From Desulfobacterales bacterium (GTDB lineage Bacteria; Desulfobacterota; Desulfobacteria; Desulfobacterales; JAIPEE01), in contig JAIPEE010000024.1 of assembly GCA_021737275.1 (NCBI GenBank), forward strand, positions 1-59,101: DNA of 59,101 nucleotides. Reading direction: 5' to 3'. The position numbers and the translations under genes are program-made. Numbering within the stretch: the stretch's first letter is position 1; every line of letters starts with the position of its first letter. This document shows, piece by piece, positions 23,518 to 40,083 of this stretch. The notes under the pieces are model-generated. The model ran no database searches. It was not told the origin of the DNA and was given only the letters and a program-made list of their open reading frames with translations.

Positions 23518-24459
23518 TTAGACACCCGGCAGAATACACAACATCTCATAAAGCAGGTTGGCTGCCGTAAGGGCGGTGTTACCACTTATATCATATGGCG
23601 GTGAAACTTCCACCAGATCACCGCCGACAATATTAAGTCCTTTGCAGCCCCGAATAATTTCCAGACCCTGGATAACGGTCAGGCCTCCAATTTCGGGCGT
23701 ACCGGTTCCGGGTGCAAAAGCCGGATCAAGACTGTCAATATCATAGCTGAGATAAACCGGGCCGGCACCAATCGTTTTTCTAAGTTCATCCATTAAAGGT
23801 GCCAGGGATTTATACCAGCACGCTTCAGCCTGAATGACGCGCACCCCTTTCCCCCTTGCCCACTCAAAATCTTCAGGGGAATAACCGGTTCCCCTGAGAC
23901 CGATCTGTACAGACCGCAAAGGATCAATTAATGATTCTTCGATAGCACGGCGAATGGGTGTACCATGTGCAATCTTCTCTCCGAACATATGATCATTTAC
24001 ATCCGCATGCGCATCAACATGGATCAGCGTAATTGGGCCATGCTTTTTCTTTATTGCACGCAGAATCGGCAGTGAAACCGTATGGTCACCACCCAATGTT
24101 AAGGGTGTACAGCTATATTGTAAAATTTCATCATATGCCGACTCTATAATAGCCATAGATTTTTCAAGATTAAACGTATTGATCGCCACATCACCGATAT
24201 CGGCAACATTCAGCGAATCAAATGGCGCTGCATTTGTCGCCATATTATAAGGACGGAGAAGTGAAGATTCATCCCGAATCCGGCGTGGGGCATACCTGGC
24301 GCCTGGACGGTTTGAAGTGCCGATATCAAACGGTATGCCTACAAAACAGGCGTCCAGGTCTCTGGTGTTTTCCTGCGTGGGCAGGCGCATCATTGTAGAA
24401 GGACCGCCGAATCTTGGCATTTCATTTCCACCAAGCGGTTGAAACGTTGTTTTCCCCAT
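23518..24459 (-). CDS. speB: Agmatinase/guanidinobutyrase-type ureohydrolase
   Basis: A 313-residue arginase-superfamily enzyme with both binuclear manganese motifs: LGGDHTVSLP, HVDAHADVND (DxHxD) and YDIDSLDPAFAPGTGTPE (DxDxxDP). It hydrolyses a guanidino compound to urea and amine. Stretches such as QPLGGNEMPRFGG, RPGARYAPRRIRDES, LLRPYNMATNAAPFDSL and KKKHG recall Pseudomonas guanidinobutyrase/guanidinopropionase more than classical SpeB, so a guanidino-acid substrate is a real alternative. Context with two agmatine deiminases supports guanidino-compound breakdown. Confidence 0.9.
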   Translation of the reverse strand: MGKTTFQPLGGNEMPRFGGPSTMMRLPTQENTRDLDACFVGIPFDIGTSNRPGARYAPRRIRDESSLLRPYNMATNAAPFDSLNVADIGDVAINTFNLEKSMAIIESAYDEILQYSCTPLTLGGDHTVSLPILRAIKKKHGPITLIHVDAHADVNDHMFGEKIAHGTPIRRAIEESLIDPLRSVQIGLRGTGYSPEDFEWARGKGVRVIQAEACWYKSLAPLMDELRKTIGAGPVYLSYDIDSLDPAFAPGTGTPEIGGLTVIQGLEIIRGCKGLNIVGGDLVEVSPPYDISGNTALTAANLLYEMLCILPGV

Positions 24460-24639: not shown

Positions 24640-26346
24640 TTACTTCTCAATTCCCTGAAAGGATGGATCTGTAAATACCGGCGTTCCTTCAAACAGTGTC
24701 ATCAATACTTTTGTATCTGCAATTTCCGTTTCCGGAATATCGAACAGATTCTTTTCGAGTATCACCATATCAGCCATTTTCCCCACTTCGATCGATCCGG
24801 TGATATCCTCCACAAAATTGGCAATGGCCCCATTAATTGTAAAACTTTCAATCATCTCTTCCAATGTCATTTTCTCTTTTGGGTTCAGGACATCGTCCGG
24901 ATTACTACTTCCCGGTTCACATCTGGTGATCCCCAGCATAATGCCCACCAGGGGCGGGCTCGGAACCGTCACGGGATAATCACTGGCTGCAGCCAGCATT
25001 ACGCCGGCATCAAGAAAGCTTTTCATGGGATATTGTGCATCCGCCCGTTCTTTTCCAAGATATGGTAGAGAAATCTCATCATAATATTCTCCTTTCAAAT
25101 GCCAGAATGTCTGCGGCACACCAATCACGCCCAGATCCGCAAAGCGCGGTATGTCGGCATAATCTACGACATGAAGATGTGTTATGAGGTGGCGCGTCTG
25201 GAGTGTTCCGTTTTTTTCACGGGCATATTCCAGTGCATCAAGTGAAACCTTGACGGCAGCATCACCGATGGCATGGACATGGATCTGAAGATTTTCAGCA
25301 TCAATCTCCTGAAAAGTTTCATTGGCAATATCCGTTTCCCACAGGCTCTCACTTCTAAAATCCGGCATATGTCTGTAGGGCTCCACCAGGTATGCGGTAC
25401 TGCCTTCAACAACGCCATCGATAAAAACCTTTGCACCTGTAAGCTGGAAATGGGGGTGCTTATGGATAGCGCATTGCGCTTTCAATGCAGCCACCTGTCC
25501 GGCGCCCTTTGTCGGATCTGTTAATATGGTCCCGCGTACCCGCAACGTCAATTCATCATTGGCTGTCAATTGGTCAAACGCTTCAATGTTATTTCTTAAA
25601 TTACCATAACCCAAAAGCGTGCCCTCAGCATCAGGCATCAGGAGAAGAGCGTCATGAACTGTAGTGATCCCTTCGGATGCAGCAGTTTTCATATAGCTGT
25701 GAATCCCTCTTTTTAAACGATCAACCGGGAATGGTGGTAAAACATTGTAAATCAAATCCATGGCATTTTCCCGAAATGTGCCGGACGGTTCACCCGTATC
25801 AGGATCCCTTTCAATTACACCGCCAGGCGGATTAGGTGTGTCCTTTGTAACACCGGCCATCTCAATGGCTTTTGAATTTACCCAGACAGAATGGCCGTCC
25901 CCTGACATGAGAGATGCCGGGCGGTCGGGAACCACCGTATCGAGATCCTCTTTCCTGGGGCCAATCGGTGGAAAGGGCTCATTACCCCACCCGCCTCCAT
26001 CTATAACATCCTGATTCGGGCATTTTGTTACATAAGTACGAATTGCTTCCAGATAAGCCTCAAGCGTTGGCAGATTAGCCAACGCCACACCATCGCCTTC
26101 AGCGGTCACAGCGGATATATGCATATGGCTGTCTATAAAGCCAGGCATAACCATTTTGCCTTTTAAATCGATTACCTGTGTGTCGGGTCCGACATAAGAT
26201 TCAACACCGTCACTGTCTCCGACATAAACAATCATTTTATCAGTTACAGCAACTGCTTCGGACCAGCTTTTGTTTCTGTCAACAGTGTAAATCCGGCCGT
26301 TTTTCATGACCAGGTCAGCGGTTTTGATTCCTGATGTGTCTCCCAT
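24640..26346 (-). CDS. Amidohydrolase (YtcJ/NfdA-like), copy 1
   Basis: A 568-residue amidohydrolase superfamily protein, subgroup 3. The N-terminal beta-sandwich part (DLVMKNGRIYTVDRNKSWSE) is followed by the metal motif GFIDSHMHIS (HxH) near 75, then IHVHAIGDAAVKVSLDAL near 360, RHLITHLHVVD near 385, and the Asp of AASDYPVT near 465. Subgroup members hydrolyse N-formyl or N-acyl amides and similar C-N bonds; the substrate here is unknown. A second copy sits at 36.1-37.8 kb in the same supercluster, suggesting the pathway needs two related hydrolyses. It follows the TetR gene by 77 bp. Confidence 0.9.
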   Translation of the reverse strand: MGDTSGIKTADLVMKNGRIYTVDRNKSWSEAVAVTDKMIVYVGDSDGVESYVGPDTQVIDLKGKMVMPGFIDSHMHISAVTAEGDGVALANLPTLEAYLEAIRTYVTKCPNQDVIDGGGWGNEPFPPIGPRKEDLDTVVPDRPASLMSGDGHSVWVNSKAIEMAGVTKDTPNPPGGVIERDPDTGEPSGTFRENAMDLIYNVLPPFPVDRLKRGIHSYMKTAASEGITTVHDALLLMPDAEGTLLGYGNLRNNIEAFDQLTANDELTLRVRGTILTDPTKGAGQVAALKAQCAIHKHPHFQLTGAKVFIDGVVEGSTAYLVEPYRHMPDFRSESLWETDIANETFQEIDAENLQIHVHAIGDAAVKVSLDALEYAREKNGTLQTRHLITHLHVVDYADIPRFADLGVIGVPQTFWHLKGEYYDEISLPYLGKERADAQYPMKSFLDAGVMLAAASDYPVTVPSPPLVGIMLGITRCEPGSSNPDDVLNPKEKMTLEEMIESFTINGAIANFVEDITGSIEVGKMADMVILEKNLFDIPETEIADTKVLMTLFEGTPVFTDPSFQGIEK

Positions 26347-26423
26347 TTTAAATACCTCCCTGTTATAATGATGTGAACACGCGGTCTGCTTATCCGGATT
26401 TTTTAAATGGATGTTTGAAATAG

Positions 26424-27041
26424 TTATCGCTTTCGAATACCATTTATCAAATAGGACAAATGTTTTTCAATCAATTGATCGAGTGTATAATCGGATTTAT
26501 CAAAGTATCCATAATCCTTGTAGTAGCTTAATCCCTCCATCGTTGAAAACAAGCTGTAAGTGGCAACCATGGTATCAAGGTTCGGATCCAGTTCCCCTGC
26601 CTTGATACCGTCTCTGAAAATTGATGTCAGGATATTGTACCACTCCGCATCCAGTCTTGCCGTATATATTTTAAATGACTCTGAAAGATCCAGTTCGTTA
26701 ATATTGACGGTCAAAAAATAGGCATCATCAGATGTTTGAAAGTTAAAATAAGCTTTTGCTGAAGCAAGCAACCGGTCATAGACCGAACCCTTTGCATCTA
26801 AAGACACCTTCAACTGATCATTGGTGAGCGTGGTTGCCCTGGCATACAGCTCACCCCAGAGTTCATCTTTACTTTTGAAATAAATATAAATTGTACCGAC
26901 AGAAAGCCTGGCCTCTTTTGCAATGTCTCGAATAGTTGCTCCGGCAAAACTCTTTTTTAAAAATATTTTCCGGGCAGCCTTTACAATTTGTTCCACCCTT
27001 TCTTTTTTTTCAGCTTCATTTCTGGACCGTTTCATATTCAC
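26424..27041 (-). CDS. TetR-family regulator of the amine supercluster
   Basis: A 205-residue TetR protein. The HTH is at about residues 30-55 (ATIRDIAKEARLSVGTIYIYFKSKDELW); the rest is a helical ligand-binding/dimerisation domain. Its start overlaps the preceding methyltransferase stop by 4 bp, so the regulator is encoded inside the catabolic operon. A plausible operator is the pair of TGAAC-N3-GTTCA palindromes upstream of the first gene of the operon (39813-39865). The inducer is probably a pathway substrate. Confidence 0.9.
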   Translation of the reverse strand: MNMKRSRNEAEKKERVEQIVKAARKIFLKKSFAGATIRDIAKEARLSVGTIYIYFKSKDELWGELYARATTLTNDQLKVSLDAKGSVYDRLLASAKAYFNFQTSDDAYFLTVNINELDLSESFKIYTARLDAEWYNILTSIFRDGIKAGELDPNLDTMVATYSLFSTMEGLSYYKDYGYFDKSDYTLDQLIEKHLSYLINGIRKR

Positions 27042-28510
27042 TTTTCACTTTTCAGCTCTGCTTCATATGTTTCAATAATGTTCCGCATCGCCTCAGCAGC
27101 GCCTTCGACAAGCGGCAGCGGCTGATGGGTTTTAAGTATCCCGGCTGCTTTATCATAAGCGCGTTCGGTCAGATCCTTGCCGCCTGTATTCTTTTCCCAT
27201 CTTTCACGGCTGGCTCTGTCAAAAAGACCGGCCTGAGAAAGTTCCCGCATATGGTCCATGGTATGACGTTTTGTCATATATTCCCCGGCCGGACCGGCAT
27301 CATGTATCACATCAAGCGCCATTGTCTCTTCAGAAATTTCAAACGCCTGAACAAGCTTCATTATTCGGCTGCACTGTTCAGCGTCCATAATAAAAGCAGC
27401 ATAATCAAAAGTCAATGCGGACTCAATGGTTCCCGGCCCATAAATTATATTTGCACCGGCCATTGCAGCGGCCATTGCATTTAAACTGAAATCATAGGCA
27501 GCCTGTGCATCCGGTAGTTTACTGTCTGAAGCGCCGCCGCCAACCCAGCTTGGCAGCTTATAATACTGTGCCATTTTGGCAATAGCGACACTCAGCATAC
27601 CCTGTTCTGGTATGCCGATAGGAGAACTGCCAAGCCTCATATCCATAATGGTGGAACAACCACTGTAAGTGCATGGGGTTCCTTTTTTAACAAGCTGCGC
27701 CAGAATCAATGCACTTAATACTTCCGTATTATGCTGAACCAGGGTTCCGGCCATGGTCGCCGGCGCAGTGGCACCGGCCAGTGCCATGGTGATAATCATC
27801 ATCCCGATACCGGAACGGGCACATTCGATAATAATTTCACAACCATCCTGTACAAGTGTAAGCGGGCTGGTGGGACAAACATTTGCAGTAAAAATGGGTC
27901 GTTTTCTAAAATTATCCATACCGCCTGAGCAGGCGGCCGCCATTTCAATTATTTTCGCGGTATTTTCCTTCGACCCTAAAGCCAGAAAACCGTGTTTACT
28001 CGAATTGGTCACCATGGCTTCAAAATTATGGAGCGGCTGCGTTTCCGGCATCTTATCACCGGAACAGGCCGGGCGTTCAATTACAACCATCTCATCCAGA
28101 AAATCGGCAATACGTACAATATCAGCGACATCCTGTTTTACCGTTGGTCTGATACGCCGGGATTCCGGATCAATGATATTCATATTTTCGCCATAGGACG
28201 GCGCAAAGCCGATCCGGCTGGAATCGGCCACATAGTCATCTTCCGGCCTGCGGCCGAAAAAGGTCACCGTAGACGGCGCCCAACGGATACAGTCTTCAAC
28301 AATATGCGCCGGTATCTTGACAATTCCGTAACCATTATGGTGCTCGACAATTGCGCCTGCGCCCTCGAAAATATCAAGCGCTTCAACGGACTCAACTTTT
28401 ATCCCTGTATTTCGGAAAACCTGAAGTGTTGCATAGTGAATTGCATCCAGATCGTCTTCAGAGAAAGCATTTAATCCAAATCCTTTTATTTTGTTTAATC
28501 CTGATTTCAT
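27038..28510 (-). CDS. MttB-superfamily methyltransferase, copy 1 (non-pyrrolysine)
   Basis: A 490-residue member of the trimethylamine methyltransferase superfamily (COG5598). Landmarks: KGFGLNAFSEDDLDAIHYAT at the start, NSSKHGFLALGSKE, FRKRPIFTANVCPTSPL, the glycine-rich barrel segments MDMRLGSSPIG and WVGGGASDSKLPDAQA, and GEYMTKRHTMDHMREL near the end. The frame runs through without an internal TAG, so this is not a pyrrolysine enzyme; it belongs with the MtgB/MtpB-type enzymes that demethylate betaines onto a corrinoid protein. It is 27 bp downstream of copy 2 (tandem paralogues). Confidence 0.92.
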   Translation of the reverse strand: MKSGLNKIKGFGLNAFSEDDLDAIHYATLQVFRNTGIKVESVEALDIFEGAGAIVEHHNGYGIVKIPAHIVEDCIRWAPSTVTFFGRRPEDDYVADSSRIGFAPSYGENMNIIDPESRRIRPTVKQDVADIVRIADFLDEMVVIERPACSGDKMPETQPLHNFEAMVTNSSKHGFLALGSKENTAKIIEMAAACSGGMDNFRKRPIFTANVCPTSPLTLVQDGCEIIIECARSGIGMMIITMALAGATAPATMAGTLVQHNTEVLSALILAQLVKKGTPCTYSGCSTIMDMRLGSSPIGIPEQGMLSVAIAKMAQYYKLPSWVGGGASDSKLPDAQAAYDFSLNAMAAAMAGANIIYGPGTIESALTFDYAAFIMDAEQCSRIMKLVQAFEISEETMALDVIHDAGPAGEYMTKRHTMDHMRELSQAGLFDRASRERWEKNTGGKDLTERAYDKAAGILKTHQPLPLVEGAAEAMRNIIETYEAELKSEK

Positions 28511-28537
28511 TTTTAACTCCCGATTATAAGCGTTTGT

Positions 28538-29995
28538 TTATTTGATATCCTTTTCATAATCAGCAATAATTTGCTTCATTTTTTCAGCGGCGCCCTCCGG
28601 AAGCGGCATCGGCTTATGTGTTTCCAGAATCTGTTTTGCTTTCTCATAGGCGCACTCCACAATATCCTTACTGCCGTCAGCTTCCCAGGCCTCCCTGTTT
28701 CTTCTGTCAAAAAGTTTGGACATGGAGCTCTCTCTCATATGATTAAGCGTATGCCGCTGTGTCATATAATCGCCGGCCGGGCCGACCGTATCAATTACAT
28801 CCAGGGCAAGCGTTTCTTTATCTACCTTAATCCCCTCCATAACTTTGCTCATTCTGTGGATATATTCCGTATCCAGAATGGCTTTCGCATAATCAAACGT
28901 CAGACCGGATTCGATACTGCCGACACTGAAAATAATATTGGAACCACTCAGTGCGGCCAGCGATGTATTTTGTGCATACTCGGAAACCGCCTGCGCATCG
29001 GGCTGCTTGCTGTCTGAGACACCGCACCCGCTCCAGTTTGGCAGTTTGTAGTATTGGGCCATCTTGGTTGCGGCAGCACTTAACATACCATATTCCGGTG
29101 AACCCGTTGATGCTCCGGCTGTTTTCATATCCATAATAGTGGCACAACTGCCATACGTAAAACGTGAACCTCTGGCTGTCAGCTGTGAAAGCACCAGCGC
29201 GCTCAGAATTTCACAATTCTGTATAACTAAAGTCCCGGCAAGCGTGGTAGGTGCCGTTACACCACTTAGCGGCATTGTAATGGCCATAATACCGACATTC
29301 ATTTTTGCACACTCAACAATAACATCACATGCCATCCGTACGAGCATTAAAGGACTGGTCGGGCAAACAACGCCGGTAACAATAGGACGTTTTTTAAAGT
29401 TCTCCATACCGCCGGAACAGACAGCAGCCATCTCTACAATCTTTTGAGCATTTCCTTTTGTATAAAAACCCAGGAAGCAATGCTTACCGGTATTACTGAC
29501 CATGGCCTCATAATTGTGCATCGCCTGTGATTCAGCAGGTGTATCCTGTGCACCCATACATTTTTCAATAACCACCAACTCGTCAAGGGCATCTCCCATG
29601 CGGGTTGCTGTGGCAAGATCTTCCTTTACACAACCGCGATGTTTTCTTGTCTCAAGATCGATAAGATGGGTATTTTCACCGAAAAAAGTAAAACCGATAT
29701 TTCCAGGTTGACCCACATAATCATTTTTCGGATCACGCCCATAATATACCAAGGTACTGGGGGCAGACCGAATGGCATCTTCAACAACATGGGGAGGCAT
29801 CTTTACAATCTTGTATTTTTTACCCTGTTCCACCCTGCATCCACCGGCCTCCAGTATCTCAACAGCGTCATCGGACTCTACCTGTATACCGGTGTTTGAC
29901 ATTACCTGAAGCGTTGCATAATGTATCGTATCCAGTTCTTCTTCTGTAAAAACGTTTAAGCCAAATCCCTTTAATTCTTCAAACCCTGCTTTCAT
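28538..29995 (-). CDS. MttB-superfamily methyltransferase, copy 2 (non-pyrrolysine)
   Basis: A 485-residue close paralogue of copy 1, sharing KGFGLNVFTEEELDTIHYAT, FKKRPIVTGVVCPTSPL, LTARGSRFTYGSCATIMDM and GDYMTQRHTLNHMRE. It has no in-frame amber codon. It would transfer a methyl group from a quaternary amine to a corrinoid protein. No corrinoid protein gene is adjacent; the nearest is 10 kb away in the next operon. Differences in the substrate barrel (for example WSGCGVSDSKQPDAQ against WVGGGASDSKLPDAQ) suggest the pair handles related but different substrates. Confidence 0.92.
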   Translation of the reverse strand: MKAGFEELKGFGLNVFTEEELDTIHYATLQVMSNTGIQVESDDAVEILEAGGCRVEQGKKYKIVKMPPHVVEDAIRSAPSTLVYYGRDPKNDYVGQPGNIGFTFFGENTHLIDLETRKHRGCVKEDLATATRMGDALDELVVIEKCMGAQDTPAESQAMHNYEAMVSNTGKHCFLGFYTKGNAQKIVEMAAVCSGGMENFKKRPIVTGVVCPTSPLMLVRMACDVIVECAKMNVGIMAITMPLSGVTAPTTLAGTLVIQNCEILSALVLSQLTARGSRFTYGSCATIMDMKTAGASTGSPEYGMLSAAATKMAQYYKLPNWSGCGVSDSKQPDAQAVSEYAQNTSLAALSGSNIIFSVGSIESGLTFDYAKAILDTEYIHRMSKVMEGIKVDKETLALDVIDTVGPAGDYMTQRHTLNHMRESSMSKLFDRRNREAWEADGSKDIVECAYEKAKQILETHKPMPLPEGAAEKMKQIIADYEKDIK

Positions 29996-30036
29996 ATACT
30001 GTTCTCCTGTTTTACTTGTTTTTTTTGTTTGTTATA

Positions 30037-30876
30037 TTAACAATAAGAAATTACCACCACACCGGCAAGTGCACTGATAACGCCCACTGTTTGTAACCGC
30101 CCCATTCGCTCGCGCAGAAATAATCCGGCCAATAATATTGTTACTACCGGATAGAGGGAAGATATCACACTGACAATACTGACCATGCCTGTTTTCGTAG
30201 CTATTCCAAAAAGGAATACGGCCAGTGTATCAAAAACGCCTATTAAAATCAGAACCGGCAAATCAACCGGTCTGAATTGAAGCCTTGTTCGTGTTGTAAA
30301 AAATGCTATTGAAAAAATCGTACATGTACTTATTCGAAGGATCACTGTTGCCCAGAACGGATCCGTATTGCTTGCCGCATCCATAAAAATATAAAATGCG
30401 CCGACAGACAATGAAGCCAGTATGCCCAGCTTTATCCCTTTGGAAGAGTGTTTTTTGTCACTATCGCTGTGTTTTTCCCGTGTAATTAAAGTGACACCCA
30501 GCATGGCCAAAATAATTCCAAGCATTTGAAAAAATTCGATATAACCATTTACAACCAGATCATATACAACCGGATAAACGGCCCCGGTGCAACAGATAGC
30601 AGAAACAATTCCCATTGGACCGATTGCCATACCCCGATACCCGAAGCTTAATATTCCCACGGAAGCGATACCGGCCAGAACAGCAAAAAACATACTGCTA
30701 TCAATTGATATGTTTGTCCAGTGCATTGTCAGAACAACAGCGCTGGTAATCAGCCCGACACACTGAGTAACAATAACAACCGACAGCAATGGTATCTGTC
30801 TTGTTTTAAGACCGCCCAGAAAGCCTGTTAATCCCCATGCAAAACAGGCCAATAATGCAAAAATTACAGCTTCCAA
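30037..30876 (-). CDS. EamA/DMT-family transporter
   Basis: A 279-residue membrane protein with about ten hydrophobic helices in two EamA halves (VIFALLACFAWGLTGFLGGL; then GILASLSVGAFYIFMDAASN), normal for drug/metabolite transporters that move amino acids, amines or metabolites. The start codon is TTG (30876), chosen because AGGA lies just upstream and no in-frame ATG exists nearby; it begins 9 bp after the aconitase-X small-subunit stop. Within the operon it would import or export a pathway compound. Confidence 0.88.
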   Translation of the reverse strand: MEAVIFALLACFAWGLTGFLGGLKTRQIPLLSVVIVTQCVGLITSAVVLTMHWTNISIDSSMFFAVLAGIASVGILSFGYRGMAIGPMGIVSAICCTGAVYPVVYDLVVNGYIEFFQMLGIILAMLGVTLITREKHSDSDKKHSSKGIKLGILASLSVGAFYIFMDAASNTDPFWATVILRISTCTIFSIAFFTTRTRLQFRPVDLPVLILIGVFDTLAVFLFGIATKTGMVSIVSVISSLYPVVTILLAGLFLRERMGRLQTVGVISALAGVVVISYC

Positions 30877-30885
30877 TTTAAAATC

Positions 30886-31332
30886 CTACTTAAATATTTC
30901 TACAGTTCCGCTTTCATTTATCTTGATCCGGTCACCATTCCTGACCGTTTCAAGAAACGCATCACCCAACCGATCTATTGTAATTACGCGCTTTTCAGCC
31001 CAGACATCTGCTATGATGAGACCACCGGCGGCCAGCGAATCGATTTTTTGAGAAAACAACACTGCTTTGGGAATATTTCCCATTTCGGCCAGTCGCTGCC
31101 ACACTGCACCGCCGGAGGTGGAACCGGTTGTCTTGGGAAGGCATATTATTTTGTCTGCCAAATCTTTTCCAAAAAGTTCCGGGTTGCTGCTGTCCGCACA
31201 TATGACCTGGTCCACCGATCCGTGAATACTGGTGAAAAAACTGGCATATGTGTTGAAACCGCTATGCGTTACCACCGCCTGCCCTTCAGTAGCACCGGAG
31301 AGAACCGCTCTGCCTTTGAAAAACAAATTCAT
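30886..31332 (-). CDS. Aconitase-X small subunit (DUF126)
   Basis: A 148-residue swivelling-domain subunit of aconitase X. Motifs: FKGRAVLSGATEGQAVV at the start, the substrate-serine loop region PKTTGSTSGGAVWQRL in the middle, and GGLIIADVWAEKRVI. It pairs with the large subunit, whose gene it overlaps by 4 bp. Two-subunit aconitase X enzymes dehydrate either cis-3-hydroxy-L-proline or, in archaea, mevalonate 5-phosphate. The betaine-type neighbours favour the hydroxyproline type; this is inferred. Confidence 0.92.
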   Translation of the reverse strand: MNLFFKGRAVLSGATEGQAVVTHSGFNTYASFFTSIHGSVDQVICADSSNPELFGKDLADKIICLPKTTGSTSGGAVWQRLAEMGNIPKAVLFSQKIDSLAAGGLIIADVWAEKRVITIDRLGDAFLETVRNGDRIKINESGTVEIFK

Positions 31333-32642
31333 GCGTCCCCCCTGATATTTCCGGAAACCAGGATTTCTAAAATTTCTTTATCCGGAAAATATCTGGCATT
31401 GGTATAAGCTCTGAGTTTATTGGAGTTGGTAATAATCGTTTCATTCTCAGACAGGTTGTTGTCAAAAAGCTGCATGGAACATGCGGGACTGAATTTCACA
31501 CCAGCATTCGTAAGTTGCTGCCACGCTTTTTTGTTTTCCCTGAATTTTGCCAGCACTTGTGGTGCAGCACAAATAGTTGTTTTTATCTTAAGATTAATAC
31601 AATTTGCCGCCATTAAGGCTTCATGGATTTTAGCTGCCCACCATTCCAGCTGGTTCAGGCTGAAATGGGGGCATCCCAGATAACATTTCTCCGGTCGCGC
31701 ATTCTTCTCTTTCCATAAGACAGGATAAGATTTCAAAAGATCCTGCAATGTATTATCATCAATAATACAGGTTTTAAAATTGCCGGCTAAAAGGCCATCT
31801 CCCATTTCAAGCGCTTCCGGCGTGAGGTTTTCAACGTGATATAATCCGACTGCTCCGGCAGTTGCACATCCGGCACCCATATCATGGAGATAATCAAGGG
31901 TATTCTGATTCATATCAGAACCTAAATATCGATCAAGTCCAATAATATACGGAACATCGGCTAAAACCCTTTTTCCGATTGCCGCGCCTAAAAGCTGTGG
32001 CGGCGGCAGTTCATCAGTTCTTATCTCTATCCGCCAGGTTGCTTTCCGTTCTTCATTCAACAAAAATCCGGACAAGGGAACTTTCCCGATAATATTACAT
32101 AACAGATCCATAATGGCACCGTTACGATTAGACCTTGCCCCTAAAACCGAATTGGCAAAAATCACACATGCAGATTCCGACCAGGCTAAAATATCATCTC
32201 TTTTCGGCAGGTTTCCTACCTCGGGCAGATATGGTGTACAGGTACACGCCTCTGGAGATAAAAGGCCCAATTGCAGCATTTTCTTATCATAACGTGCCTG
32301 AGTCTGATACATTTGGTCAAGTATCTTTTTTTGAGCAGACGTCAGCCACCAGTTATCATAATCTAATGGTGCTACCGGGTCTAACGTAAAAGGCAGCCCG
32401 GCTTTCAAACCGGCCTCTATCAGGTCATCAAGCATCTCCATTGATGGCGAAATACCGGGAATGGCATGGGTAATAACAAAGTGCCCTTTTCCGGTAATAT
32501 CAACAAGCCGTTCCGCTTCCAGGGCTTCACCATAACGCACAACCGTCTCCATGATCTTCTGAAGCATTGCACCCTGTTTGCCTTCGAGAACATCTTTTTC
32601 TTGTTGTGTAAGGCTTATTTTAAGGTTGTTAAAATCTTTCAT
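31329..32642 (-). CDS. Aconitase-X large (catalytic) subunit (DUF521)
   Basis: A 437-residue catalytic subunit. Cys residues typical of the iron-sulfur site appear in ESACVIFANSVLGARSNR, GAGCATAGAVGLYHVENL and KCYLGCPHFSLNQLEWW. Expected reaction: dehydration of cis-3-hydroxy-L-proline to delta1-pyrroline-2-carboxylate, or of a similar hydroxy acid. The frame extends to a TTG at 32663, but ATG 32642 has GAGGTG five bases upstream and is preferred. It follows the flavoenzyme gene by 17 bp and overlaps the small-subunit gene by 4 bp. Confidence 0.92.
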   Translation of the reverse strand: MKDFNNLKISLTQQEKDVLEGKQGAMLQKIMETVVRYGEALEAERLVDITGKGHFVITHAIPGISPSMEMLDDLIEAGLKAGLPFTLDPVAPLDYDNWWLTSAQKKILDQMYQTQARYDKKMLQLGLLSPEACTCTPYLPEVGNLPKRDDILAWSESACVIFANSVLGARSNRNGAIMDLLCNIIGKVPLSGFLLNEERKATWRIEIRTDELPPPQLLGAAIGKRVLADVPYIIGLDRYLGSDMNQNTLDYLHDMGAGCATAGAVGLYHVENLTPEALEMGDGLLAGNFKTCIIDDNTLQDLLKSYPVLWKEKNARPEKCYLGCPHFSLNQLEWWAAKIHEALMAANCINLKIKTTICAAPQVLAKFRENKKAWQQLTNAGVKFSPACSMQLFDNNLSENETIITNSNKLRAYTNARYFPDKEILEILVSGNIRGDA

Positions 32643-32659
32643 TCTCACCTCTGTGTCAA

Positions 32660-34663
32660 TCAAATAAATCTGGCAATTTCATATGCGTCCCAAACCGCAT
32701 TCATGACATTACGAGGTTCCCGGCAATCTCCGATACGGTAAACATAATCTGCAATATCTCCTGCCTGATCTGCGAGACTTGTTTCTGATTTCATTCCCAT
32801 GGCCAGCACTACAGTATCTGCCTCAATATCTTTTTTGCCTGATTCTTTTTGATCAATCAGAACACCTTTCGGTTTAAATTCACACACCTGACTATCGGTA
32901 ATGATTGTGGTTCCACATTTTGTCAGCAAGTCCATGGTCATCATTTTAACCTGGCCCGGAACATGCGCACCGCCCGTCATAAGCGCCGGAAGCATTTCAA
33001 CAATGGTTGCCTGTTTACCCTGATCTGTCAGCCATATGGCCATTTCACAACCCACCAAACCGCCGCCGACAATTACGATGCGCTCACCTGCCGTTTTCTC
33101 ACCTTTGAGCAGATCCACCGCAGTTACCACCGAATCCTGATCGACACCCGGAATCATTGCAGGTACAATTGCGTTTGCACCGGTGGCCAAAATAACGACA
33201 TCTGGCGATTTGGATCGGATAAGGTCAGATGTGATTTCCTCATTCATAAAAATATTAACGCCGGTTTTTTCAATTTGACGTTCATACCATGCCTGCAGTC
33301 TTCTCAGATCTTTTTTAAATTCCGGCACGGCAGCCTGCTGAACCAATCCTCCAAGCATCGTCTTTTTCTCATAAAGAGAAACCTTGTGCCCCCGGATTGC
33401 AGCAACCCGTGCGGCTTCCATTCCGGCAATACCACCACCTATTATCATGACGTTTCTCGGGTCTTTTGCAGATTCCAGGCGATAGGCACTTTCCCTTCCT
33501 GATGAAGGATTGAGCGCACAGGAGATATTACGGATTTTCGCATAACTGCCAAAGCAGCCGTCATAGCATCCCACACAGGGCCGGATATCTTCAGGTTGGT
33601 TTGATTTTACTTTATCTGCCCACTGCGGATCTGCAAGAAATCCGCGACCAATGGCCGCCACATCAATCTTTCCATCCGAAACGGCCTGAGCTGCAATCTC
33701 CGGTTTATCCAACCGTCCAACGCCTACGACCGGTATTTTTACAACATCTTTTGTTTTGGCCGGCATCTCAACCATACAGCCATGCTTTTGATAATTCGGG
33801 GGATGCGGCCAGTAATGGCTCTCGTAACAGCCTGCATCAACATGAAGAGAATCAAAGCCGGCCTGTTCCAACTGCCTGGCCATTTCAAGGCCTTCTTCCA
33901 CATCACGGCCAACCTCCTCAAAAACTTCTCCGGGAAGTGCACCCTGATTGATGCCTTTCATAAAATGTTTTAACCCAAAACGGTATTGTACAGCCAGACG
34001 ATCACCAACCCGCTGACGAATGGCATCCAGACACTCAATGGGGAAACGCAATCGATTTTCAAGGCTGCCGCCATATTTATCGGTCCGATGATTCCATACA
34101 GCAGACGTAAACTGATCAAACAGATAGCCTTCGTGACCATGAAACTCTATGCCATCAACACCGGCAACGGCTATTCTTTCTGATGTCTCTCCTATGGCGG
34201 TCACAATCTTTCCGACATCTTCCATACTCAGCTCAAGGCATATGATAGACCGATCCCAAAAGTTTGGAGTTGCAGAAGCGGATACACATGGACCCCTCAA
34301 TGTGGCGGGAACTGTAACACGCCCATATCCGGCTGTCAGTTGAACAAAAACACGGACGCCAAAACTATGGGCAGCATCGCAAAGCTCTCCAAGGTAGCCC
34401 AGAGAAACGTCTTCAAGCATAGGGGCTGATGCTTCTAATGCTTCCACTTCATTTTCCACTTTAAATACCGAACAGATAATCAACCCGACACCATGCCGAA
34501 TCCTTTCAAGGTAGTAATCCACTACCCGACGATTCAGGCTGCCATCAGGATTCACCATGTAGTCTATACCCATGGGTGCCATGGCAATACGGTTTTTAAG
34601 TTTTACTTTCCCAATCTGCAATGGTTTAAACAAAACATCAAATTTGCCCACGCTAACCCCCAT
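32660..34663 (-). CDS. TMADH/2,4-dienoyl-CoA-reductase-like flavoenzyme
   Basis: A 667-residue, three-domain enzyme: an FMN-binding old-yellow-enzyme barrel (about 8-350), a 4Fe-4S motif C363-x2-C366-x3-C370-x11-C382, and an FAD/NAD(P)-binding tail (GGGIAGMEAAR near 409 and IVIVGGGLVGCEMA near 550). The family includes trimethylamine dehydrogenase, 2,4-dienoyl-CoA reductase and the demethylases of the stachydrine (proline betaine) and dimethylglycine pathways (StcD, DgcA types). Among methyltransferases and aconitase X, oxidative N-demethylation of a tertiary amine is the most attractive role, but an ene-reductase function is not excluded. Confidence 0.9.
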   Translation of the reverse strand: MGVSVGKFDVLFKPLQIGKVKLKNRIAMAPMGIDYMVNPDGSLNRRVVDYYLERIRHGVGLIICSVFKVENEVEALEASAPMLEDVSLGYLGELCDAAHSFGVRVFVQLTAGYGRVTVPATLRGPCVSASATPNFWDRSIICLELSMEDVGKIVTAIGETSERIAVAGVDGIEFHGHEGYLFDQFTSAVWNHRTDKYGGSLENRLRFPIECLDAIRQRVGDRLAVQYRFGLKHFMKGINQGALPGEVFEEVGRDVEEGLEMARQLEQAGFDSLHVDAGCYESHYWPHPPNYQKHGCMVEMPAKTKDVVKIPVVGVGRLDKPEIAAQAVSDGKIDVAAIGRGFLADPQWADKVKSNQPEDIRPCVGCYDGCFGSYAKIRNISCALNPSSGRESAYRLESAKDPRNVMIIGGGIAGMEAARVAAIRGHKVSLYEKKTMLGGLVQQAAVPEFKKDLRRLQAWYERQIEKTGVNIFMNEEITSDLIRSKSPDVVILATGANAIVPAMIPGVDQDSVVTAVDLLKGEKTAGERIVIVGGGLVGCEMAIWLTDQGKQATIVEMLPALMTGGAHVPGQVKMMTMDLLTKCGTTIITDSQVCEFKPKGVLIDQKESGKKDIEADTVVLAMGMKSETSLADQAGDIADYVYRIGDCREPRNVMNAVWDAYEIARFI

Positions 34664-34664
34664 T

Positions 34665-36104
34665 TTATCTCAAGTGCGTATCAGCACTTTTAATAATATC
34701 TTCCATTTCTTTTTTGATATCATCAGAAATAATTACAGAGCCGGCATTTTTCATAATAGTTTTCAAGTCCCGGTTTGCCCTGTATCGCAGATCATGTCCG
34801 CCTTTTAATTCCCATGCATCCCTGGTTAATCTCGTGAAGTTAATCGGCTCAAAACTGTCCCGGCAATGTTTAAACGTATGCGGGTTGGTCAAAAACTGAT
34901 CACCCGGTTTACAGTTCATCAATTCGTCCCAGGCCATAGCATCATCGTTAAAAGTCATTTCAGAAATCATGGCTTTGGCCATCCCGAATACTTCATTATC
35001 AATAACCAGTTGCACCGGACTGATAGTACAGGCGGTTTCAAGCTGTCCCGCGCCACCCAGAACACTGGCACCGGACATGGCCATCATCATCGTTCGCATA
35101 GCCCGTTCCGTCATACTTTGAGCATCAATATCCGGTGAGTCCGTTCCGGAACCGTAAGTATGTGTCGGCAAACCAAACCCTTTACTCATAAACTGAACGA
35201 ACAGTGCCGACTGTCTCATGGATTCCACGCTGGACTGAAGGCTCATACCGGTTCTCATATCTGCTGAAAACTGTAATGATGTTGAAATAATCGGAATACC
35301 GGGAGCAATAACCTGGGCAGTAGCAATCATGACCAGCTCTTCTGCCGCAGCCAGTAAAACACTGCCGGGTGCTGTGTAGGGCCCTGTGGCACCAGAGGTG
35401 GGCAAACTGCAGGATTGCAGGGGCATGCCATAATTGGCAGCCTGCTGAATAATTTCAAGATCCATATATTTAAACTTCAATGGTGTCATAGAACAAGTAA
35501 TCCAGCTGGCCAGCGGATTATCACGTAATTTACTTTCTCCACCTGCTGCTGCCGTTACCATTTTCATCAGATATTCAACAGTCTCCCCGGTATAAGGCTG
35601 GATCCAGATATGTTTTTCAGTATTTTGAAGCAGCGTCCTCAGGGCATAGATATCACAAGTCTCCGGCGGTGCATCACTCGGAACAGCATATGTACAGAAA
35701 CTGATATGATCCAGTTTACTTACTAATCTACCCCAGGAAGCAATATCATTAAGTTCTATAGGACGATATTTTCCAGTGCCGGATTCAACCCATGACTGGG
35801 CACCTGTTCCGGTTCTTGTGTGGAATGTATTTTCAGGATGAGGAAATTCAAGCCGGTGTTTCCCGTCCCTTCCGCACAGGGAAAAATATGACGGCGCGTG
35901 TTCGATCTGCTCTTCTAAAAAACGTTTTGGAAAGCGGACCATATTTGTATCAAAATCAACCCTTGCACCGGCCCTGTCAAGCAGTTTGAGTACTTGAGGG
36001 TGATTCATTTCGGCGCCACGCTTTTCAAGCAGATCGAAAACGCGCACCTTCATGAGGAGAAGTGCTCTTTCGTCCATATATGAAAATTCCATACCGGTTT
36101 TCAT
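34665..36104 (-). CDS. MttB-superfamily methyltransferase, copy 3 (non-pyrrolysine)
   Basis: A 479-residue, more divergent MttB homologue: MKTGMEFSYMDERALLLMKV at the start, ASWITCSMTPLKFKYMDLEI, SLPTSGATGPYTAPGSVLLA, HTYGSGTDSPDIDAQSMTER and GDQFLTNPHTFKHCRDSFEP. No amber codon interrupts it. The barrel and C-terminal motifs are kept, but the TSPL motif of copies 1 and 2 is replaced by TPLK, so a different substrate is likely. Its stop is 1 bp before the flavoenzyme start, showing tight coupling with the demethylase-like gene. Confidence 0.88.
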   Translation of the reverse strand: MKTGMEFSYMDERALLLMKVRVFDLLEKRGAEMNHPQVLKLLDRAGARVDFDTNMVRFPKRFLEEQIEHAPSYFSLCGRDGKHRLEFPHPENTFHTRTGTGAQSWVESGTGKYRPIELNDIASWGRLVSKLDHISFCTYAVPSDAPPETCDIYALRTLLQNTEKHIWIQPYTGETVEYLMKMVTAAAGGESKLRDNPLASWITCSMTPLKFKYMDLEIIQQAANYGMPLQSCSLPTSGATGPYTAPGSVLLAAAEELVMIATAQVIAPGIPIISTSLQFSADMRTGMSLQSSVESMRQSALFVQFMSKGFGLPTHTYGSGTDSPDIDAQSMTERAMRTMMMAMSGASVLGGAGQLETACTISPVQLVIDNEVFGMAKAMISEMTFNDDAMAWDELMNCKPGDQFLTNPHTFKHCRDSFEPINFTRLTRDAWELKGGHDLRYRANRDLKTIMKNAGSVIISDDIKKEMEDIIKSADTHLR

Positions 36105-36131
36105 AGTATGTGTTATCCTTTAACCGGAAAG

Positions 36132-37826
36132 CTACTTATCTCTGTAGATTTCTTTTCCCTCAAAAATTGTCATCAGTATATTTGTATTACTGATTTCAGA
36201 TGGCGGAATCTCAAGCAGATTTTGATCCAGAACAATAATATCAGCCTTTTTACCCACCTCCAATGATCCTGTTTCATCTTCAAGGAAATTGGCAAACGCG
36301 CCATTGATTGTATAGCTGGCGATCATCTCTTCGACACTTACCCGCTCCTCCGGGCCTAAAATCTCATTTGGATCATCAACACCGGGCTCACATCTATTCA
36401 CACCACCATGAATTCCCAGCATTGGCGGGCATGGCATACTCACCGGAAAGTCACTGGCTGACGCCATGATAACCCCGACATCCATAAAACTTTTCATGGG
36501 ATATTCCTTTTCCGCTCGCTCCCGGCCCAGATAGGGTAACTCAAGCTCTTTATAATTGGACCCTTTTTTAAACCACATGGGTTGAGGTACTCCCAATATA
36601 CCCATATCTGAAAATCGTTTAAAATCGCCCGGTGCCAGGACCTGAATATGGGTTACCTGATGACGTGAATCCCTTTTACCATTAGCTTTAACAGCACATT
36701 CATAAGCATCCAGTGTCATGGAAATACCGGCATCACCAATAGCATGAACATGGATCTGCAATTTTTCCTTGTCAAGAGCCTCAAACATTACATTCAAATC
36801 ATCAGGGTTCCAGATCGGTTCTCCACAAAAACCGGGTTTGTGATTATAGGGTTCATGCAGAAAGGCTGTTCCGCCTTCAACAACACCATCGACAAAAACT
36901 TTTGCTGATCTTATTTGAAATAGCGGGCTTTTATGATTTTCACACTCGATAAGTAATGCCGGAATCTGTGATACGCCCAATTCCGGTGATGTATGAATGG
37001 AAGCCCTGACACGCATTGTTAATTTGTTTTCTTCTGCAAGTGCAGCAAATGCAGTCGTATTCTCCCGATACCATCCGAGACCCAATAATGATCCTTTGTG
37101 CCCCGGTACAAGAACCATGGCATCATGAACAGTTGTGATACCCTCTCTGGCTGCTACTTCCATGTACGCATGCAGTCCTTCTTTTATTTGTTCAACAGTA
37201 AGCGGCGGCAGCACATTATGAATAAGATCCATTGCATCTTCCCGTAGTGTGCCGGAGGGTTCACCGGTTTCCGGGTCATGTTCGATTATACCGCCCTGTG
37301 GTGCAGGCGTATCTTTTGTTACACCGCAAATCTCCAATGCCTTTGAGTTAACCCAGATGGCATGCCCGTCTTCTGACATAAGGGATGCCGGTCGATCTGA
37401 GATAACTGCATCCAAATCTTCTTTTCGCGGCCCTATCGGCGGAAATAAAGTATTATCCCAACCATTGCCGTAAATTGCTTTCTTATCCTTATTGGCTGAT
37501 GCAAAAGCTCTGATGGCGTCCTGGTAAGCTTCAAGGGATGGCAGGTTATTTAAAATTACTGTTGCAACCAGTGATGCAGCCATTGATGGATGGGCATGGC
37601 TGTCAATAAAACCGGGGAGTACCATTCTGCCATTCAGGTCTATTATTTTTGTTTCCGGCCCGATAAAGGATTCGATTTCGCTATTACTCCCGACATAAAT
37701 AATTTTATCTCCACTCACGGCAATGGCTTCTGCCCGGCTTTTCTTTTCATCGACCGTATATACATAACCATTTTTAATTGCCAGATCCGCAATGTGTTTT
37801 TCATCGGTAACAGATTCTGAGCACAT
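36132..37826 (-). CDS. Amidohydrolase (YtcJ/NfdA-like), copy 2
   Basis: A 564-residue paralogue of the enzyme at 24.6-26.3 kb. It has the same metal ligands: GFIDSHAHPS near 78, IHVHAIGDAGISMTLDAYE near 360, RHQVTHIQVLAPG near 385, and ASASDFPVSMP near 460. Note that HxH is kept while RHLITHLHV of copy 1 reads RHQVTHIQV here. It probably hydrolyses an amide or cyclic imide in the same pathway. It is the second gene of the operon after the solute-binding protein. Confidence 0.9.
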   Translation of the reverse strand: MCSESVTDEKHIADLAIKNGYVYTVDEKKSRAEAIAVSGDKIIYVGSNSEIESFIGPETKIIDLNGRMVLPGFIDSHAHPSMAASLVATVILNNLPSLEAYQDAIRAFASANKDKKAIYGNGWDNTLFPPIGPRKEDLDAVISDRPASLMSEDGHAIWVNSKALEICGVTKDTPAPQGGIIEHDPETGEPSGTLREDAMDLIHNVLPPLTVEQIKEGLHAYMEVAAREGITTVHDAMVLVPGHKGSLLGLGWYRENTTAFAALAEENKLTMRVRASIHTSPELGVSQIPALLIECENHKSPLFQIRSAKVFVDGVVEGGTAFLHEPYNHKPGFCGEPIWNPDDLNVMFEALDKEKLQIHVHAIGDAGISMTLDAYECAVKANGKRDSRHQVTHIQVLAPGDFKRFSDMGILGVPQPMWFKKGSNYKELELPYLGRERAEKEYPMKSFMDVGVIMASASDFPVSMPCPPMLGIHGGVNRCEPGVDDPNEILGPEERVSVEEMIASYTINGAFANFLEDETGSLEVGKKADIIVLDQNLLEIPPSEISNTNILMTIFEGKEIYRDK

Positions 37827-37850
37827 ACTTTTCTCCCTTTTAAATCTTAT

Positions 37851-37888
37851 AGCGCCCTTTCCATACCAATTGAAAGAGCGCTTTTTTT
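37851..37888 (+). terminator. Hairpin with plus-strand T-run between operon genes
   Basis: AGCGCCCTTTC (37851-37861) pairs with GAAAGAGCGCT (37872-37882), one bulge, followed by seven Ts on the plus strand. On the minus strand, where the genes lie, there is no T-run after the hairpin, so it would act as an mRNA processing or attenuation structure between the solute-binding and amidohydrolase genes rather than as a full stop. Confidence 0.5.
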
Positions 37889-37922
37889 TATTCTGATTTT
37901 TCTACCTGTTACTCCAATTTAC

Positions 37923-39569
37923 TTACTTTGGATGAACATTAAAAAATGTCCACGGGTTAATCCAGTTTGATACACCACCCATAAATCCGGTTTCATAACC
38001 CTGCAGCAAATCTGTGTTTACCGGACAAAGTATATCAGGTCTGGCAAGTGTGTAATGGGGCAGATCCCTTAAAAGTATCTCCTGAAGCTTAAAACTGATT
38101 TCATTACGTTTATCCATATCATCTTCAGAATAAAGTGCGGTAATCAGCTTATCAAATTCAGGGTTCTGATAATATGCCGTATTCCAGCCGGCACCGCCGC
38201 CTTCTGTACTGCGCATGAATTCCCAAATCCAATCTGCATAGGGTCCCGGTTCCTCTCCACCGAAAGCCATGTCAAAGCCATTACCCTGCGGGTAGTAGAG
38301 AATATCGTAATAGGTATCCAGATCAAGCGCCTGAATATTTACATCCAGACCAACTTTCTTGAGCTGTTCTCTAATGAGCGTTGCAATTTTAACACTTTCT
38401 GCAGAATCTGTAGATGTCAGAAACTTGATTCGAATATTGCTTCCTTTTTTTGAATCATTTCTCAGGTTATCACCATCTGTATCCTTATATCCTGCTTCAT
38501 CAAGAATTTTCTTGGCTTTCTCAATGTCATGTTCATATTTGGGCAGGTTAGGATTATATTCCGGCAATTCCGGATAAATGAAGCTATCATGCGGCGTGGC
38601 ATACCCATGGTAAACCATCTGGATGATACGTTCCTTGTCTATTGCATGGACAATCGCTTTTCTCACTTCGAGATCACCTATGGGGCTATCTTCAGGATGC
38701 AGATTGAATGTCAGCCACAGCAGAGCAACTCCGGGAGATCTAACTATTTCAAGGTGGGGTTGCTTTTCTAAAATTTTTACGGCAAGTGGTGAAATGCCTG
38801 TATAGCCCAACATATCAATTTCACCTTTTTTGAGCGCCATATTTATCGCATCTGTTCCGCCATAGGGTTTAAACGAAATTTTATCTACAGTAGGCCTGTC
38901 ATCCCAGTATTCTGCAAATTTTTCAAAAATAATATATTCGCCTGCTTTAAATTCTTTCAGCTTAAAGGGGCCTGAACCGATCGCCTGCTTATTATCATAT
39001 TTTGTCATTTCATATTTATAACGTTTAAATTTATGCTTGGGCATGATCGGGAAAAAATTAAAAGGTGCATACTTGTGTCCAAGTTTTTGTTCAAGTTCAA
39101 AATCTATGGTGTGATCATCAATAATAACAATTGAATCTTTTACTGTTATGCAATCAAAATAACTGAATGTTGGATCAGAACCAGGCAGGTACTCCATTCC
39201 AAAAGCAATATCTTCTGCAGTTACCGGTTTACCATCATGCCATTTCATACCTTCTCTTAAAGAAAATCGCCATTTTTTACGATCTTCTGTTTCAAACTTT
39301 GTGATCGCCCTTGGTACAAGATTATATTCAGGACTTGGACCAAGCAGCCACGTCTGATCATAAAGCAGCTGCCAGAACATACAACCCTGTGATTCATAAT
39401 GCCATGCATTGGTAATTCTACATGAGTCCAGCATTTCAGAAGAGTCCCAACCGACTCTCAGCTCACTTTCAGCAAATGCAGCCGGTGAAGAGATAATCAG
39501 AATTACCCCTAAACATAATCCCAACATAAACGTTTTCATAACCTTATGCCCTCTTATGCGCTTTACCAT
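37923..39569 (-). CDS. Peptide/nickel-type ABC solute-binding protein, copy 1
   Basis: A 548-residue family-5 solute-binding protein (DppA/OppA type). Signal peptide at residues 11-33 (KTFMLGLCLGVILIISSPAAFA). Typical segments: KWRFSLREGMKWHDGKPVTAEDI, YKYEMTKYDNKQAIGSGPFKL, RKAIVHAIDKERIIQMVYHG and GGGAGWNTAYYQNPEFDKLI. Such proteins bind peptides, opines, nickel complexes or other small nitrogen compounds in the periplasm. No permease or ATPase gene is nearby. The start at 39569 has GAGGAG upstream, and two TetR-like palindromes lie about 250-300 bp upstream. Confidence 0.92.
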   Translation of the reverse strand: MVKRIRGHKVMKTFMLGLCLGVILIISSPAAFAESELRVGWDSSEMLDSCRITNAWHYESQGCMFWQLLYDQTWLLGPSPEYNLVPRAITKFETEDRKKWRFSLREGMKWHDGKPVTAEDIAFGMEYLPGSDPTFSYFDCITVKDSIVIIDDHTIDFELEQKLGHKYAPFNFFPIMPKHKFKRYKYEMTKYDNKQAIGSGPFKLKEFKAGEYIIFEKFAEYWDDRPTVDKISFKPYGGTDAINMALKKGEIDMLGYTGISPLAVKILEKQPHLEIVRSPGVALLWLTFNLHPEDSPIGDLEVRKAIVHAIDKERIIQMVYHGYATPHDSFIYPELPEYNPNLPKYEHDIEKAKKILDEAGYKDTDGDNLRNDSKKGSNIRIKFLTSTDSAESVKIATLIREQLKKVGLDVNIQALDLDTYYDILYYPQGNGFDMAFGGEEPGPYADWIWEFMRSTEGGGAGWNTAYYQNPEFDKLITALYSEDDMDKRNEISFKLQEILLRDLPHYTLARPDILCPVNTDLLQGYETGFMGGVSNWINPWTFFNVHPK

Positions 39570-39812
39570 ACTTTTCTTCTCCTCTTTTGAGCTGCAGGTT
39601 AAGAATATTAATCTTCCGGTTTTTATTTCAAAAAATCCAATTTTTATATGAACAAGCCATCTCCGGTCAAAAATGGCTTAATTTTTTGTTGGCGGGCTTG
39701 GGATTAAATTTTATCTCCGAAAGGGACAATAAAATGGAGATCAAAAAAGGGCCCGCCTATTTTAAAAGTGATTATTCCAGATCAAGAGGCCCCGGCGCTG
39801 TACCACGCCTAT

Positions 39813-40063: not shown

Positions 40064-40083
40064 GAACGGGTCGAACCAAAGAA

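Follow-up and report, generated by a model that had tools for sequence, protein, structure and literature searches.

Aconitase X (AcnX) is known for two reactions, the dehydration of cis-3-hydroxyproline and that of mevalonate 5-phosphate, each of which converts a 3-hydroxy acid into a 2-enoate (PMC8184944). According to the accessible part of that account, Asp203 of the hydroxyproline enzyme AtAcnX binds the hydroxyproline nitrogen, its Ala mutant being almost inactive, and Asn79 of the large subunit of the mevalonate enzyme TkAcnX, at the position of AtAcnX Asn233, contacts the 5-phosphate of mevalonate 5-phosphate; subclasses IIc to IIf carry no landmark residue of either activity. The clostridial 2-enoate reductases, including the enzyme of Clostridium tyrobutyricum, are proteins of about 73 kDa with flavin mononucleotide (FMN), flavin adenine dinucleotide (FAD), an Fe-S cluster and four conserved cysteines, and the available text describes the family as reductases, with 2-enoates as the substrate class (PMC5882074). 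Among the MttB homologues covered by the part consulted of a third source, carnitine and gamma-butyrobetaine are substrates of MtcB and MtyB, and one homologue demethylates proline betaine (PMC8604678). The present analysis concerns a stretch of 59,101 nucleotides from a Desulfobacterales bacterium (assembly GCA_021737275.1, contig JAIPEE010000024.1, positions 1 to 59,101; hereafter the window), in which a two-subunit AcnX, a flavoenzyme resembling 2-enoate reductases and three MttB proteins are encoded in one run of eleven genes (24640-39569, minus strand). The lasting finding is a conserved pair of AcnX and a 2-enoate-reductase-type flavoenzyme, which in the window is joined to corrinoid methyltransferases.

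The AcnX of the window consists of a large subunit (AcnXL, 31329-32663, minus strand, Pfam PF04412, 277 bits) and a swivel, or small, subunit (AcnXS, 30886-31332, minus strand, PF01989), encoded separately, side by side and with overlapping genes, and it is thus of type II. The start codon of AcnXL is TTG, or an alternative ATG 21 bases further in. The flavoenzyme gene (32660-34663, minus strand, 667 amino acids, Oxidored_FMN and Pyr_redox_2) overlaps that of AcnXL by 4 bp, as AcnXL does that of AcnXS, and lies 1 bp from the gene of one methyltransferase, MttB3. When AcnXL was used as a single-sequence query against the genome contigs, no relative was found. A profile search with alignment A1 gave 220 AcnX relatives, the best 80 of which were retained for alignment and locus counts. 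The pair was defined as a flavoenzyme hit above 150 bits on the same strand as AcnX, and it was observed in 55 of the 80 loci, where the flavoenzyme was adjacent to AcnX with a gap below 100 bp in 51 and of 441 bp at most. Two gene orders were found, with the flavoenzyme upstream of AcnX in 44 loci and downstream in 11.

Carriers of the pair, which span Bacillota, Chloroflexota, Desulfobacterota, Spirochaetota and other groups, included Thermoanaerobacter, Tepidanaerobacter, Clostridium, Caloramator, Lachnospiraceae, Spirochaetota, Chloroflexota, Aminicenantota and Cryosericota; named cultured anaerobes among the carriers were Thermoanaerobacter wiegelii, C. tyrobutyricum and C. luticellarii. 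Among the 25 loci without the pair, some are on contigs that stop close to AcnX or contain no more than fragments of a flavoenzyme gene (L096 and L100), and others have different genes beside AcnX. Truncation by contig ends affects many loci: the L073 contig breaks off within the flavoenzyme gene, and that of L076 measures 9.8 kb. AcnX matching that of the window at E ≤ 1e-100 was found in 4 of 389 genomes of the class and 4 of 395 of the phylum, the window's own being counted in both. A selection of AcnX neighbours elsewhere, scanned by family, included chemoreceptors, regulators, ABC and membrane proteins, sugar kinases and a tRNA synthetase, among others, and gave no clue to the substrate. 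The stable unit is AcnX with a 2-enoate-reductase-type flavoenzyme, with many phyla represented. The products of the known AcnX reactions are 2-enoates. Because this AcnX should also make 2-enoates and the family of the flavoenzyme reduces them, the simplest reading of the pair is probably a two-step removal of the beta-hydroxyl group from a free acid. No description of an AcnX-enoate reductase pair was found in the literature searched, which leaves out most subscription papers.

In order to compare the AcnX of the window with the characterised enzymes, residue columns were located with the help of the type I enzyme of Sinorhizobium meliloti, which agrees with AtAcnX in its motifs; the AtAcnX and TkAcnX residues were those given in the accessible part of PMC8184944. 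At the Asp203 column (AtAcnX numbering) Val was found in the window AcnX and in 79 of the 80 relatives, and Ser in the remaining one. The alignment includes a positive control, since the Asp is kept in S. meliloti, Paracoccus denitrificans and, within the window's order, a further six AcnX rows. The column of Asn233, or Asn79 in TkAcnX, was occupied by Asp in the window AcnX and in all 80 relatives. Compared with the cis-3-hydroxyproline dehydratase, Asn294 was also replaced by Ala, Ser449 by Cys and Cys510 by Met, whereas the protein family and the expected reaction type are the same. Glu292 and Ser293 were kept in 80 of 80 relatives, Lys530 in 79 and Tyr534 in 78. Three cysteines were kept in 78 to 80 of the 80; one of them stands at the Ser449 column, as in TkAcnX, and a window cysteine occupies the column of AtAcnX Cys508. 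Cys110 and Cys283 of TkAcnX align with cysteines of the window AcnX, Cys342 lying outside the printed alignment. The GSTSGG motif of AcnXS aligns with the serine motif of AtAcnX and was also aligned to TkAcnX.

TkAcnX was the best solved relative with 133 bits; AtAcnX scored no more than 90. In the tree, the clade of the window AcnX stood apart from type I and from TkAcnX, the latter being a partial sequence on a long branch in a midpoint-rooted tree. Assignment as a cis-3-hydroxyproline dehydratase was rejected on the replacement of Asp203 by Val, and assignment as a mevalonate-5-phosphate dehydratase on that of Asn79 by Asp. Because both landmark residues are absent, the clade fits the description of the uncharacterised type II subclasses IIc to IIf, with which it shares separate small and large subunits, the serine motif, the Glu-Ser, Lys and Tyr residues and three cysteines (PMC8184944). 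Neither the Val/Asp signature nor a pairing with an enoate reductase is mentioned in the accessible text of that account.

Side observations were made at three AcnX loci. L070 (5963-13201) contains two tandem AcnX pairs with longer large subunits (536 and 522 amino acids), 35-36% identical to that of the window, and a relative falls outside the window's clade of 57. A Theionarchaea contig (L094, 9980-11736) encodes a window-type AcnX pair (47%), and the flavoenzyme gave no hit at this locus. On a plasmid of Rhodococcus opacus PD630 (L154, 20034-21763), a window-type AcnX (43%) has no OYE-type gene annotated beside it and an LLM-class flavin oxidoreductase close by; this plasmid context gave no clue to the substrate.

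The flavoenzyme has a calculated mass of 72.8 kDa and contains four Fe-S cysteines. Among solved structures it came closest to NCR (6qkg, 2-naphthoyl-CoA reductase), with 266 bits, and to 2,4-dienoyl-CoA reductase, with 236 bits; trimethylamine dehydrogenase (TMADH) followed at 169 bits. In TMADH, Cys30 carries the FMN; the corresponding column holds Gly32 in the flavoenzyme and Gly in 52 of 52 AcnX-linked relatives. The comparison with N-methylproline demethylases was made with the annotated HpbA of Paracoccus seriniphilus as reference. The identity was 27%, and HpbA was without the HEGY and HPP signature. The genome of C. tyrobutyricum ATCC 25755 gave exactly two matches at E ≤ 1e-40, with 44% and 40% identity, one of which is presumably the published enzyme. 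The flavoenzyme and both of these copies have in common a His that precedes HEGY at a distance of one or two residues, a Tyr with Asp or Glu followed by HPP, and the four cysteines, one of which is replaced by Asp in 13 of the 52 AcnX-linked relatives. On these grounds (the Gly at the Cys30 column, the low identity to HpbA and the match with the C. tyrobutyricum signature) a TMADH/StcD-like identity was rejected. The flavoenzyme fits the 73-kDa clostridial 2-enoate reductases, represented by FldZ and the C. tyrobutyricum enzyme, in size, in the combination of an OYE domain with an FAD/NAD domain, in the four Fe-S cysteines and in the active-site signature, and it is closest to known members of that group. 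It differs from them in that the identity is only 40-44% and in being encoded beside AcnX.

MttB1 (27038-28510, minus strand), MttB2 (28538-29995, minus strand) and MttB3 (34665-36104, minus strand, PF06253, 224 bits) matched the MTTB family and showed no in-frame TAG codon. The position of pyrrolysine in the trimethylamine methyltransferase MttB was occupied by Ala in MttB1, Val in MttB2 and, by pairwise alignment, Gly in MttB3. MttB1 is the sister of MttB2 (55% identity). Both passed the cut-off of the pyrrolysine-MttB model TIGR02369 (577 and 584 bits, respectively; cut-off 525) and were nested by the tree among TAG-coded rows of the genome (support 100/98). Pyrrolysine loss is possible for this pair (27038-29995); a tree with the TAG rows as one group without MttB1 and MttB2 was not rejected by the approximately unbiased test (p 0.095). 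The three proteins resemble the betaine methyltransferases of the MttB superfamily (MtcB, MtyB, MtpB and MtgB) in Pfam family and in being pyrrolysine-free, whereas MttB3 forms a distant lineage of its own and MttB1 and MttB2 belong to the pyrrolysine clade.

MttB3 orthologues (43-59% identity) were found in 9 of the other 280 genomes of the order searched, and a 35% relative in three more. Some of these loci are short; three (L182, L184 and L187) have confirmed genes for a TRAP transporter (DctM or DctP) and two an aldehyde dehydrogenase, which suggests that MttB3 probably acts on a carboxylated amine. One 35% relative (L191) occurs together with two more MttB genes and a dehydratase of the MmgE/PrpD type, so a dehydratase beside MttB genes is not unique to the window. 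At L183 (9350-10789), an MttB3 orthologue is split by one in-frame TAG near residue 264 (hand count), away from the pyrrolysine column.

A profile search for MttB over the 80 AcnX loci (1,304 kb in all) revealed two in which MttB lies near AcnX. In L074, from Thermoflexia, the order is AcnXL, a class-III aminotransferase, a corrinoid protein, MttB, a gene resembling 3-hydroxyacyl-CoA dehydrogenase, and AcnXS. In L076, from Desulfobacterales, an MttB3-type gene (46% identity to MttB3) lies 43 bp from AcnXS in convergent orientation. In the AcnX tree, both loci group with the window in a subclade that comprises eight rows (support 98). The nearest AcnX sisters of the window, L073 and L079, have the flavoenzyme and show no MttB, the contig of L073 stopping within the flavoenzyme gene; L079 has an EamA transporter gene beside the flavoenzyme and sarcosine-oxidase-like genes close by.

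It is proposed, at somewhat below an even chance, that AcnX dehydrates a free 3-hydroxy acid, the flavoenzyme reduces the resulting 2-enoate and the MttB proteins demethylate the compound. Gene content, spacing, the conserved pairing and the residue signatures were observed, whereas both reactions, their direction, the substrate and co-transcription are inferred. The compound may enter through the SBP_bac_5 binding protein of the run or another transporter, and the amidohydrolases may release it from an amide or conjugate, with no specific substrate implied. AcnX, with both subunits and a predicted Fe-S cluster on its three cysteines, would then convert the 3-hydroxy acid to the 2-enoate, and the double bond would putatively be reduced by the flavoenzyme at the expense of NADH; coenzyme A (CoA) would not be required. 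The three pyrrolysine-free MttB proteins would transfer N-methyl groups to a corrinoid protein, and this demethylation may precede or come after the dehydration. Because the AcnX-flavoenzyme module lies in one close run with three MttB genes, the substrate is likely an N-methylated 3-hydroxy acid.

L-carnitine is the best single guess for this acid, although by itself an unlikely one. Three points favour it: carnitine combines a 3-hydroxy acid function and a trimethylammonium group, MtcB and MtyB take carnitine and gamma-butyrobetaine as substrates, and Escherichia coli carries out the same net conversion. In this version L-carnitine would be converted to crotonobetaine and then to gamma-butyrobetaine, followed by corrinoid-dependent demethylation. 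According to the accessible text on the E. coli enzymes CaiA, CaiB, CaiC and CaiD, the dehydration and subsequent reduction to gamma-butyrobetaine proceed there on CoA thioesters, by other enzyme families, and serve as an extra electron acceptor route, whereas free acids are proposed for the window (PMC8604678). The host genome has one match to the CaiB family (PF02515), on another contig, which is uninformative about the run. The Asp at the phosphate-binding position of the mevalonate enzyme would be better matched to a substrate tail with a positive than with a negative charge; the argument is weak because the Asp is also kept in genomes without a nearby MttB. In the literature searched, with most subscription papers outside it, no joint treatment of carnitine, enoate reductase and crotonobetaine was found. 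The wider proposal, that AcnX and 2-enoate reductase constitute an undescribed and widespread CoA-free module of anaerobes for beta-hydroxyl removal, joined here to corrinoid demethylation toward carnitine or another hydroxylated betaine, is put forward tentatively, as possible but with the balance somewhat against it.

Several observations weigh against the main proposal of dehydration, reduction and demethylation. MttB was found near AcnX in only those two of the 80 loci, neither with a flavoenzyme hit, and at none of the 55 pair loci, so that the window alone among the loci seen has MttB, flavoenzyme and AcnX together. Elsewhere, MttB3 orthologues have TRAP transporter genes as neighbours, and the stretches fetched around them gave no AcnX hit. 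Three other AcnX loci from the phylum were divided: L161 carries the pair, L162 and L163 lack the flavoenzyme. Conversely, the flavoenzyme has relatives with no window-type AcnX nearby, one in L193 (47% identity) and one in Enterococcus raffinosus (39%), where AcnX is absent within 6 kb. A relative in L194 (47%) is separated by about 4 kb from an AcnX of a different kind (27%). As for carnitine, its specific NCBIfam models were reached by 0 of the 16 window genes scanned. The accessible text on FldZ states that it takes aromatic and not aliphatic enoates, the enzymes of non-proteolytic clostridia being said to be broader (PMC5882074).

The same absence of MttB from the pair loci, the abundance of MttB in the host genome (33 matches above 180 bits) and the TRAP transporters beside the MttB3 lineage elsewhere would be expected if the AcnX-flavoenzyme pair were a general module, serving as an electron sink with a non-methylated 3-hydroxy acid, that lies by chance in an MttB-rich stretch while the MttB proteins act on an unrelated substrate. 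This explanation is considered rather unlikely, though a serious one, since the genes of MttB3, flavoenzyme and AcnX overlap or lie 1 bp apart in the window, and since L074 and L076, members of the window's own AcnX subclade, also have an MttB gene within or next to their AcnX genes. The pair could also work in the oxidative direction, as a CoA-free step of beta-oxidation in which the flavoenzyme oxidises a saturated acid to the 2-enoate and AcnX adds water to it. Genes near AcnX elsewhere point that way, namely a thiolase and an acyl-CoA ligase in L075, an acyl-CoA ligase in L076 and the 3-hydroxyacyl-CoA-dehydrogenase-like gene in L074. The oxidation of an unactivated acid with NAD is uphill, however, which makes this direction improbable. 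The enzyme family is, moreover, described as reductases in the accessible source (PMC5882074).

The preliminary description, made from the window alone, had suggested the breakdown of an N-methylated (hydroxy)proline or a related cyclic betaine by a TMADH relative of the StcD/DgcA kind and an AcnX of the cis-3-hydroxyproline type. Neither identification was supported, the flavoenzyme being unlike TMADH and HpbA and of the 2-enoate reductase kind instead, and AcnX being without the substrate-binding Asp203. The loss of this ring-nitrogen-binding residue could suit a nitrogen without hydrogens, but the Val is found in 79 of the 80 relatives, also where no MttB is near. Type I AcnX, moreover, falls outside the clade of the window, and no hydroxyproline gene was seen among the selection of neighbours scanned by family. 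Proline betaine demethylation by an MttB homologue (PMC8604678, in the part consulted) and an upstream sigma-54 regulator nearest to PrdR (395 bits, cut-off 795) speak for this pathway, which is nevertheless judged quite unlikely. What stands of the joint pathway is its general outline: the close run and the MttB genes by AcnX in L074 and L076 make a pathway for an N-methylated acid reasonable, while the TMADH and hydroxyproline chemistry for the most part does not stand. Co-occurrence of MttB and AcnX, to which that description had looked, does exist in other genomes but is rare (2 of 80 loci). It had also looked to the mevalonate-5-phosphate type of AcnX, and here the signs were divided: the landmark Asn79 is absent, but the set of cysteines, where alignable, and the best solved relative, TkAcnX, are those of the mevalonate type. 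That the run serves isoprenoid synthesis with AcnX as mevalonate-5-phosphate dehydratase is very improbable, as the phosphate-binding Asn is Asp in 80 of 80 relatives and the adjoining window genes belong to catabolic or transport families.

The remaining genes of the run agree with what had been named at the outset; all eleven were present on the minus strand and matched the Pfam families (SBP_bac_5, Amidohydro_3 twice, MTTB three times, Oxidored_FMN with Pyr_redox_2, AcnX, its swivel domain, EamA and TetR), and the MttB proteins were indeed pyrrolysine-free. The first gene (37923-39569, minus strand, PF00496, 288 bits) encodes the SBP_bac_5 substrate-binding protein, whose relatives in the PDB are of the oligopeptide and nickel types; its permease is not encoded within the run. 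Two Amidohydro_3 metal-dependent hydrolases (PF07969), AH2 (36132-37826, minus strand, 316 bits) and AH1 (24640-26346, minus strand, 311 bits), are 56% identical, and AH2 has two solved relatives at E ≤ 1e-10, both uncharacterised. An EamA-family transporter (30037-30876, minus strand, PF00892) and a TetR-family regulator (26424-27041, minus strand, PF00440) complete the run. Gaps between neighbouring genes range from -4 to 96 bp, and the genes of 24640-39569 are presumably co-transcribed. In 29000-46600, 46 promoter-like sites were counted against 36.2 (standard deviation 6.4) and 28 terminator-like sites against 18.5 (standard deviation 4.0), and these did not define transcript ends in that interval. 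An agmatinase-family gene (23518-24459) on the same strand, 180 bp downstream, may belong to the run. Upstream, the PrdR-like sigma-54 activator (PrdR being a proline reductase regulator) occupies 44500-46191, and a peptidase S15 gene, a second SBP_bac_5 gene and another TetR gene lie on the same strand at 46798-51289. The host genome (4.26 Mb) contains one AcnX, and ten of its MttB matches have one in-frame TAG.

A second block was found upstream of the run. A corrinoid protein resembling MtgC/MtbC (40084-40713, minus strand, Pfam B12-binding and B12-binding_2), a possible methyl acceptor, sits 514 bp upstream of the eleven genes and reached 188 bits with the NCBIfam model MtgC_2, below its cut-off of 370. 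Further upstream come a BCCT transporter (40756-42345, minus strand) nearest the glycine-betaine type (betaine_BCCT, 511 bits, below the cut-off of 650) and MttB4 (42419-43873, minus strand); in the tree MttB4 pairs with MtgB, the methyltransferase for glycine betaine, as its sister (support 99/98; 37% identity). Because of these affinities of MttB4 and of the transporter, the block 40084-43873 looks like a separate, ordinary glycine betaine demethylation module.

With the conserved pair, an uncharacterised clade of bacterial two-subunit AcnX gains a concrete and testable role, that of a 3-hydroxy acid dehydratase working with a 2-enoate reductase. The presence of the pair in named cultured anaerobes and in Lachnospiraceae makes direct testing feasible. 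Should carnitine or a related compound prove to be the substrate, the run would lead from carnitine to gamma-butyrobetaine by a way other than the Cai pathway, with a bearing on the precursors of trimethylamine.

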